DNA of 64,000 bases. It comes from Glaciimonas soli (GTDB lineage Bacteria; Pseudomonadota; Gammaproteobacteria; Burkholderiales; Burkholderiaceae_D). Made by a program: the position numbers and the translations under genes. The stretch spans positions 620,001-684,000 of the forward strand of contig NZ_WINI01000001.1 of NCBI RefSeq assembly GCF_009497155.1. Direction: 5' to 3'. Under the pieces are notes generated by a model. That model was not told the origin of the DNA and searched no databases. It was given only the letters and a program-made list of their open reading frames with translations. Shown here in pieces: positions 28,118-30,681 of the stretch. Within the stretch, counting starts at the first letter, position 1; every line of letters starts with the position of its first letter.

Positions 28118-30025
28118 TTAGGCTTTGGTTTCAATCTCAGTTTTGAGACGCTCAACCAGTACATCAATCGGCATGACACCCAGATCGACGTTGCCTCGCG
28201 CACGCACGGCCACTGTATTTGCATCACGCTCTTTATCACCTACGACAAGGATATAAGGCGGTTTCTGCAAAGAATGCTGGCGTATTTTATAGGTAATCTT
28301 CTCATTACGCAAATCAGACTCTACTCTAAACCCTTGTTTTTTCAGTGTTTGTACAACATTTTGCACATATTCGGCTTGCGATTCGGAAATATTCAAAACG
28401 ACAACTTGCACTGGCGCCAGCCACAATGGCATCGCACCAGCATGATTTTCTATCAACATACCGATAAAGCGCTCCAATGAACCCACAATCGCGCGATGCA
28501 ACATCACCGGCACTTTGCGGCCATTGTCTTCAGTGACATATTCCGCACCTAAACGCCCTGGCATCGAGAAATCAACCTGCATCGTGCCGCATTGCCAAGA
28601 ACGCCCAATCGAATCCTTCAGGTGGTATTCAATTTTCGGGCCGTAAAATGCGCCCTCACCTGGCAACTCTTCCCATTCAGTACCTGAAGCACGAATCGCT
28701 TCGCGCAGTGCATTTTCGGCCTTATCCCAGACCGCATCTTCACCAACCCGTTTTTCAGGACGCAAAGCCAGTTTGACGGCGATATCAGTAAAACCGAATT
28801 TAGAGTACACATCGCGCACGACTTTATCGAAAGCCGCGACCTCATCTTGCACTTGTTCTTCTGTGCAGAAAATATGACCATCATCCTGCGTAAAGCCACG
28901 CACCCGCATCATGCCGTGCAAGGCGCCTGAAGGCTCATTACGATGACATTGGCCGAATTCGCCGAAGCGCAGCGGCAAATCACGATAACTATGCAAATTT
29001 GCATTGAAAATTTGTACATGACCCGGGCAATTCATCGGCTTCAACGCATAACTGCGATTTTCCGAATCGGTAGTGAACATATTGTCACGATAATTTTCCC
29101 AATGACCGGTCTTTTCCCACAAAGTACGATCGAGAATCTGCGGCGCTTTCACTTCCTGATAACCACTATCCTGATACACACGACGCATGTACTGCTCAAC
29201 TTGCTGCCATATAGTCCAGCCTTTTGGATGCCAGAAAATCATGCCAGGCGCTTCATCCTGAAAGTGGAATAAATCCAGCGCGCGACCTAGCTTGCGATGA
29301 TCGCGTTTTTCCGCCTCTTCCAGCATGTGCAGATAGGCCTCTTGCTCTTCCTTTTTAGCCCATGCAGTGCCGTATACGCGTTGCAACATTTCATTTTTAG
29401 CATCGCCGCGCCAATACGCACCTGCCAACTTCATCAGCTTGAATACTTTCAACTTGCCAGTTGATGGAACGTGTGGTCCGCGGCACAAATCAGTAAAAGC
29501 ACCCTCTGTGTACAAAGAAACATCTTGATCAGCGGGAATCGATTCAATAATCTCTGCTTTATACGCTTCACCGATAGATTTGAAATACGCGACCGCCTCA
29601 TCGCGCGGCAAAACTTTACGTGTTACCGGTTCATCTTTTTTCGCCAATTCGCCCATCTTCTTTTCAATCGCCACCAAGTCTTCTGGTGTGAACGGGCGTT
29701 TGTACGCAAAGTCGTAGTAGAAGCCATTTTCAATCACTGGCCCGATAGTTACTTGCGCATCAGGAAACAATTCTTTCACTGCATACGCCAACAAATGCGC
29801 AGTCGAATGGCGAATGACATCCAATCCCTCTGGATCTTTGTCAGTAATGATGGCCAGCTTAATATCGTGATCGATCAAATATGAAGTATCGACCACCACA
29901 CCGTCGACCTTACCTGCCAAAGCTGCTTTTGCCAGGCCTGCGCCAATAGAGGCTGCGACTTGCGCAACGGTCACTGGTGCTTCAAATTGACGCTGCGAAC
30001 CATCAGGAAGTTGAACTGAAATCAT
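28118..30025 (-). CDS. thrS: Threonyl-tRNA synthetase
   Basis: 635 residues, full length. In order: TGS domain (1-62), editing domain with HSTAHLL zinc/His motif (about 75-220), class II catalytic core with zinc ligands in MNCPGH, motif 2 ([15 protein letters not shown]) and motif 3 ([15 protein letters not shown]), and the anticodon domain (about 535-635). It charges tRNA(Thr). GGAG lies 8 nt before the ATG. It heads the thrS-infC-rpmI-rplT cluster, and its leader carries a Thr-codon leader peptide and a terminator, implying control by threonyl-tRNA supply. Confidence 0.97.
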
Positions 30026-30110
30026 TTTTTAACTCCACGTAGCCACTAATTAATGGCTAGCTATAAATTGAAATGCAAAATTGGGAAGCGTTACAAAAAC
30101 GCAGACGAAA

Positions 30111-30141
30111 AAAAACGCGGGCTAGCCGCGCGTATTTTTCA
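30111..30141 (-). terminator. Rho-independent terminator in thrS leader (attenuator)
   Basis: On the minus strand the stem ACGCG-C-GG / CC-CGCGT (7 bp, one bulged C, loop CTAG) is followed directly by eight T residues. It lies about 85 nt before the thrS start and about 27 nt after the leader-peptide stop. Flanking A and T runs extend the stem and make it potentially bidirectional. Stopping transcription here would prevent thrS expression. An alternative fold pairing TGCGCG of the leader-peptide region with CGCGCG of the stem is possible and would free thrS. Confidence 0.78.
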
Positions 30142-30167
30142 AACTAATAAGATGAAAAAGACCTCGA

Positions 30168-30209
30168 CTAGTGTCGCGCACAGATTGTGGTGGTAGTTCG
30201 CGGTGTCAT
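30168..30209 (-). CDS. Putative thrS leader peptide MTPRTTTTICARH
   Basis: A 13-codon ORF from ATG at 30209 to TAG at 30168, with an AAAGG-type ribosome binding site about 10 nt upstream. Five of 13 codons are Thr, four of them consecutive (ACT ACC ACC ACA). It sits just upstream of a rho-independent terminator and thrS, like the leader peptides of amino-acid attenuators. Stalling on scarce Thr-tRNA would be expected to favour read-through into thrS. It was recognised by codon content and position. No homologue was searched. Confidence 0.75.
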   Translation of the reverse strand: MTPRTTTTICARH

Positions 30210-30424
30210 AACCAGGATGCCTTTCTCGCTCTTACAGATGATAGTTAACATTACTATAAACCTCTGTTGATGATACCAGAATTTTATAAGATGAACAGAA
30301 GTCGCCAGCAAAAATTTAAGAGAACTAGCCGCAATTCCGTCGGCCACTTTTCGAAGCAATTATAAATTCCTGTAGCGCACATTTGCCACATTTCTCATTT
30401 AGCAACATTGAAATAGATAGAATT

Positions 30425-30489: not shown

Positions 30490-30562
30490 TATCGCAAAAG
30501 CCGAATGCTCCCGAGACCTCCGACGGCGAGTAATATTAAATACAACCAATTAGAAAAAATGG

Positions 30563-30630
30563 CCGTCATCCTCGCGAACGCGGGGATCCAAATTGCGTAG
30601 CGTGGATTCCCGCATTCGCGGGAATGACGG
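30563..30630. repeat. Palindromic repeat pair, locus C
   Basis: Inverted units CCGTCATCCTCGCGAACGCG (unit 30563-30590) and TTCCCGCATTCGCGGGAATG (unit 30603-30630), 12 bp apart. They lie about 50 bp downstream of the last efflux gene on the minus strand, where the long hairpin could protect mRNA ends or slow read-through toward thrS. Confidence 0.82.
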
Positions 30631-30681
30631 GGGTGTTTTCAAAATGATCGTTTGATCTTACTTAATTTGACTCCTATATTT

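Follow-up and report, generated by a model that had tools for sequence, protein, structure and literature searches.

A conserved Thr-codon leader and intrinsic terminator upstream of thrS: a putative transcription attenuator in Glaciimonas soli and other Betaproteobacteria

In the Glaciimonas soli window (the whole 64-kb stretch of DNA that was analysed), the gene for threonyl-tRNA synthetase (thrS) is preceded by a short ORF with a run of Thr codons, an intrinsic terminator, and an antiterminator that competes with the terminator. We infer that these elements most probably act as a ribosome-mediated transcription attenuator through which Thr-tRNA charging controls thrS (probability about 0.82). 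The elements are conserved among relatives and the two pairings are mutually exclusive; ribosome stalling, termination and a response to threonine would be the consequences. Stalling at the Thr codons, as put forward in a preliminary description of this DNA, is supported at the sequence level by the conservation of the ORF, its Thr codons and stop, the terminator, and the competing antiterminator. The kind of system is classical: leader-peptide attenuation is known for the amino acid operons thr, his, and trp in enterobacteria.

Leader ORF and terminator upstream of thrS

The features are as follows.

30270–30278, minus strand: predicted promoter, extended -10 TGGTATCAT (from sequence conservation)
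30220–30227, minus strand: Shine-Dalgarno sequence GAGAAAGG of the leader ORF, inside the conserved TAAGAGCGAGAAAGGCA (30234–30218)
30168–30209, minus strand: leader ORF MTPRTTTTICARH with stop codon; 13 codons, Thr at codons 2, 5, 6, 7, and 8
30194–30202, minus strand: region 1, CGCGAACTA, codons 3–6; can pair with region 2
30165–30171, minus strand: region 2, CTAGTCG, overlapping the stop codon; 5' side of the antiterminator, pairs with 30128–30122
30153–30159, minus strand: UUUUUCA, second 5' segment of the antiterminator (from masked-ribosome folding); together with its flanks also able to pair with the Shine-Dalgarno region
30135–30141, minus strand: UGAAAAA, partner of 30159–30153 in the antiterminator (from folding)
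30122–30128, minus strand: region 3, CGGCTAG; 5' arm and loop of the terminator, 3' side of the antiterminator (from pairing and folding)
30108–30133, minus strand: intrinsic terminator (region 3:4) with eight T, between the leader ORF and thrS
28118–30025, minus strand: thrS, threonyl-tRNA synthetase, the putatively regulated gene; ORF of 635 aa, ATG at 30025

The 13-codon ORF with four consecutive Thr codons that had been described upstream of thrS is present, with its ATG at 30209 and a TAG stop at 30170–30168; Thr is spelled ACA at codon 2 and ACT ACC ACC ACA at codons 5–8. Together with its Shine-Dalgarno sequence, which is kept throughout the Oxalobacteraceae alignment (A1) and in several other families, this makes a translatable short ORF with Thr codons. 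A longer in-frame ORF, MLTIICKSEKGILVMTPRTTTTICARH (ATG at 30251), was rejected because it is not conserved in the genus. The terminator consists of the stem-loop ACGCGCGG-CTAG-CCCGCG (30133–30116) followed by eight T (30115–30108). This T run agrees with the preliminary description, whose spacings of about 27 and 85 nt differ slightly from those measured: the stem begins 34 nt past the stop codon (27 nt when the A tract is counted), and the T run ends 82 nt before the thrS ATG. The 64 kb contain a single short ORF that combines a run of four or more Thr codons with a strong terminator behind it, against a mean of 0.0 in 40 Markov-shuffled copies; if the terminator condition is dropped, Thr-run ORFs number 4, against 0.45 per 64 kb in shuffled sequence.

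Conservation of the leader in the Oxalobacteraceae

The family of the window can be assigned with fair confidence as the Oxalobacteraceae, the nearest named relatives being Massilia and Janthinobacterium. Loci were gathered through similarity of the thrS protein alone (full-length relatives are 64–92% identical), and the upstream element was therefore not selected for. A leader beginning MTPRT or MAPRT was found at 86 of 93 Oxalobacteraceae thrS loci; seven genomes of the family lack an intact box and keep thrS. Codons 2–5 are almost invariant at the nucleotide level (ACA, CCG, CGA, ACT). Thr is found at codon 6 in 70 and at codon 7 in 68 of the 86 leaders, spelled with all four synonymous codons at the former position and at least three at the latter, and in the 13-codon leaders the entropy of the third base at both codons exceeds that of the first and second. 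The stop-region motif TAGTC was found at 74 loci and is in frame at 73 of them, all except L165; it lies either 39 or 42 nt after the ATG, such that the frame is held despite length changes of 3 nt; 12 loci in which the motif is altered or displaced were left unscored. Conservation of an ORF, of synonymous Thr codons and of an in-frame stop is what a translated Thr leader predicts.

The terminator is paired in 97.8% of the cells of alignment A1, and in one genus of the family (L132, L171, L188, and L189) the arms GCACGG/CCGTGC replace GCGCGG/CCGCGT. The comparison of upstream regions proposed in the preliminary description thus finds both the Thr codons and the terminator conserved, and their absence from close relatives, which had been named as grounds for abandoning the proposal, does not occur. 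Five Oxalobacteraceae loci (L118, L143, L155, L119, and L138) have lost the leader ORF and retain a terminator before thrS. In the 60 nt before thrS, a further stem-loop that ends just before the thrS Shine-Dalgarno sequence often occurs in the family (30061–30035 in the window); an E. coli-type ThrRS operator would have an anticodon-like stem-loop at the thrS ribosome binding site, but the sequence and loop of this one vary.

Antiterminator and competing pairings

The antiterminator pairs CTAGTCG with CGGCTAG (regions 2:3) in 98.6% of the cells of alignment A1, compared with 18–35% when the partner is slid, and in the window UUUUUCA:UGAAAAA lengthens it. The 2:3 pairing beats that of shuffled spacers both within and outside the Oxalobacteraceae; against the same control, the pairing of region 1 with region 2 is stronger in other families and not stronger in the Oxalobacteraceae, where the Shine-Dalgarno region GCGAGAAAGG pairs with UCUUUUUC past the stop codon better than in shuffled spacers, although the P values of all three comparisons ignore relatedness. 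The SD:CUUUUUC pairing may stand in for the 1:2 stem in the Oxalobacteraceae. The 1:2 helix itself, CGA(A)CTA:TAGTCG, is paired in 95.9% of cells, compared with 5–37% when slid, and shows no covariation.

Regions 2 and 3 covary across families: CTAGTCG:CGGCTAG in the Oxalobacteraceae corresponds to TCGAGG:CCTCGA in Burkholderia, GTTCGCGC:GCGCGGAC in the Comamonas type, and CTAGACGCG:CGCGCCTGG, with one mismatch, in the Massilia type. In the Comamonas type, GTTCGCGC is able to pair either with CGCGAAC of the leader codons or with GCGCGGAC of the terminator. Among 42 divergent leaders, regions 2 and 3 of the same leader pair better than regions drawn from different leaders (39 of 20,000 permutations gave a value as low). 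Inside the Oxalobacteraceae alone the element varies too little to give a sufficient covariation signal; besides the terminator, the RNAalifold consensus of the family alignment contains just a small CGGU/ACCG hairpin at the start codon of the leader. This hairpin, kept in the Oxalobacteraceae, was set aside as it is missing where the box begins CGTTATG. The antiterminator originally suggested, TGCGCG in the leader paired with CGCGCG of the terminator stem, did not hold up: the leader segment is not conserved, and relatives have GAGCGAC or similar there. In the window itself, masked-ribosome folding suggests that CGCG may contribute further pairs.

When the full window leader is folded with a ribosome masking A-site codon 2, 5, 6, or 7, the antiterminator forms with P 0.97–1.0; with the ribosome at codon 8, it forms only before region 4 has been made. 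A ribosome at the stop codon leaves the terminator, as does the absence of a ribosome (P 0.85). Across the Oxalobacteraceae, the terminator arm pairs downstream with a mean P of 0.99 for a ribosome at the stop codon and 0.98 without one. A ribosome at codon 6 makes the antiterminator dominate at equilibrium in 60% of Oxalobacteraceae genomes and in 5% of those of other families, for which a kinetic argument is therefore needed; equilibrium exclusivity of antiterminator and terminator is strong in the window, partial in the Oxalobacteraceae, and weak outside. When RNA truncated before region 4 is folded, real spacers can hardly be told from shuffled ones, and this test is given no weight in favour of attenuation.

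In the proposed mechanism, RNA polymerase would start near 30263, with a ribosome trailing it through the 13-codon leader. With ample Thr-tRNA, the ribosome would reach the stop codon and cover region 2, allowing region 3 to pair with region 4 and transcription to stop at about 30108. If charged Thr-tRNA were short, the ribosome would stall at Thr codon 2 or codons 5–8 and cover region 1, and the freed region 2 would pair with region 3, so that no terminator would form and thrS would be transcribed. If no ribosome is present, folding likewise predicts the terminator.

Transcription into thrS

Upstream of the leader lies a conserved promoter-like site for which a -10 element only is predicted; TCTGGTATCATC or TCTGGTATGATC occurs there, at varying distance, in eight close relatives in which the flanking sequence is not conserved, and the transcription start is estimated at around 30263. 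A start downstream of 30111, which had been held to count against attenuation, is therefore not what the promoter-like -10 element at 30278–30270 suggests. Between the predicted thrS promoter and an outer-membrane efflux gene is a REP-like long imperfect inverted repeat (30555–30640; CCGTCAT...GCGGGAATCC / GGATCCCCGCG...ATGACGG).

One or two tRNA-Val(GAC) genes lie directly upstream of the thrS leader at L004, L005, L006, L014, L018, L034, L112, and L115. This arrangement is found in many relatives and is absent from the genus of the window; where it occurs, the leader may be cotranscribed with tRNA-Val. The terminator might accordingly do no more than close an upstream transcript, with a thrS promoter behind it and the short ORF being incidental. 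The adjacent tRNA-Val, together with a few genomes (L119 and L138) that have lost the leader and retained tRNA-Val, terminator, and thrS, is the best argument for this explanation. However, no tRNA stands at this position in the window or its genus, which nevertheless keep the leader, the terminator, and the upstream -10 element; in 12 relatives the U tract of the terminator ends 17–23 nt ahead of thrS, a gap too short for a separate promoter, so that thrS must be reached through the terminator; and the conserved ORF and antiterminator would be left unexplained. We consider termination of an upstream transcript to be an improbable account of the element.

A nearly invariant core beyond the Oxalobacteraceae

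The attenuator-like leader appears, from sequence comparison, to be widespread in the Betaproteobacteria. Outside the closest set, 76 named thrS loci were scanned; 29 of them have the core GGTTATGACACCGCGAAC with at most two mismatches within 400 nt upstream (23 of them exactly), whereas shuffled sequences never came closer than six mismatches. Carriers include Burkholderia, Paraburkholderia, Cupriavidus, Comamonas, Acidovorax, Roseateles, Methylibium, and Rhodoferax. In Ralstonia the PRTTT frame is retained but entered from a different start codon (MIQAPRTTTASERQ), and R-T plus further Thr is kept in Vogesella (MFKRTTTTRISR), Achromobacter (MFFPPARTTT...), and a Rhodocyclaceae genome (VVTRTCTRVGL); the leaders of Vogesella, Aquitalea, and Achromobacter have a Thr run without the MTP part. 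In an order-wide sample, 58 of 260 genomes contain a core match, some of them by chance; all exact matches that were inspected stand before thrS, L181 less certainly, since its thrS was missed by the motif test and the sequence past the terminator looks like thrS. Loci outside the Oxalobacteraceae and the named set were retrieved using the core as the pattern, which biases conservation at those loci and not at the family or named loci. The core occurs exactly once in the Glaciimonas soli genome, in which a search for a second copy gave nothing better than two mismatches.

The 17-nt core is nearly invariant across many families. It keeps ACA, ACT, and CGA even in GC-rich members, where these are rare codons in thrS genes, and persists where codons 6–8 no longer encode Thr (MTPRTQEITL..., MTPRTWSFH..., MTPRTCFFLR); some other families have lost the Thr run and retain only Thr2 and Thr5. 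Region 1 pairing accounts for CGCGAAC and not for GTTATGACAC. It is possible, although we regard it as doubtful, that the near-invariant core GTTATGACACCGCGAAC has a second job, either as a site at which ThrRS or some other factor binds the RNA or as a programmed MTPRT arrest.

Another reading is ThrRS autoregulation, in which the core RNA would bind ThrRS to bring about termination or to affect translation, with the ORF being secondary. E. coli thrS is autoregulated by ThrRS on its own mRNA, and the nucleotide conservation of GTTATGACACCGCGAAC exceeds what a leader peptide needs, but the reading frame and synonymous Thr codons are also conserved, inspection of the core by eye showed no tRNA-like fold, and the element lies far from the thrS start and, unlike that of E. 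coli, does not overlap the thrS ribosome binding site; ThrRS autoregulation thus has little probability. It is very unlikely that the leader peptide senses something other than Thr-tRNA, for example through nascent MTPRT stalling the ribosome: in several families T2, P3, and T5 hardly vary and the later Thr codons do, but codons 2–5 are conserved as nucleotides too, which a peptide alone would not require, and the Oxalobacteraceae keep Thr codons 6 and 7 with free third bases.

Comparison with known systems and implications

Charging-dependent attenuation of thrS would resemble several known devices. The E. coli thrL/thrABC attenuator likewise comprises a short ORF with Thr codons, an intrinsic terminator, and an alternative stem; thrL (Rfam Thr_leader) controls biosynthesis genes through Thr and Ile codons, and the thrS leader has no sequence match to it. 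Leader-peptide attenuation of an aminoacyl-tRNA synthetase gene is likewise represented by E. coli pheM/pheST, with Phe codons at pheST instead of Thr codons at thrS, which heads the same gene cluster. In the E. coli thrS operator, ThrRS acts on translation via an mRNA structure that resembles tRNA and lies at the ribosome binding site; the target gene is the same, and Glaciimonas soli instead has a transcription terminator upstream. The Firmicutes thrS T-box is also a sensor of tRNA-Thr charging that governs a terminator before thrS, but T-box RNA binds tRNA directly and needs no translation. An Rfam search matched no family to the thrS leader, with neither T-box nor Thr_leader at gathering score or among matches to E 5.

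Naville and Gautheret (2010; PMC2965389) described leader-peptide attenuators of the Bacillus genes hisS* and hisZ; these are likewise computationally found leader peptides before a synthetase or synthetase-like gene, with His codons and in Firmicutes, and the main text of that study does not mention thrS. No thrS leader attenuator was found among the open-access papers searched, in which thrS as a target and the breadth across the Betaproteobacteria seem to be unreported.

Gene order, together with the lack of a strong minus-strand terminator between the genes, suggests that infC-rpmI-rplT-pheST would respond as well. Within this cluster, the stretch from rplT to pheS holds a 29-codon ORF (...FSRAIFIPLFYF with stop; 26703–26614, minus strand) reminiscent of the pheM leader of E. 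coli. It is not followed by an intrinsic terminator, and 20 relatives showed no clear counterpart when ORFs with four or more Phe in eight codons were sought, a threshold that the window ORF itself does not reach. As read by eye, the apparent start of infC (28047, minus strand) is the rare codon ATA behind AAAGGAAA.

If the core does have a second job, the system would combine leader-peptide attenuation with RNA-binding control, and the Thr run would be a lineage-specific feature. If attenuation is correct, a large group, with Burkholderia, Ralstonia, and Massilia among its members, would control the ThrRS gene by stalling at Thr codons, whereas the same gene is governed by ThrRS–mRNA binding in E. 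coli and by T-boxes in Firmicutes, and a charging sensor would stand at the head of the translation-gene cluster thrS-infC-rpmI-rplT-pheST.
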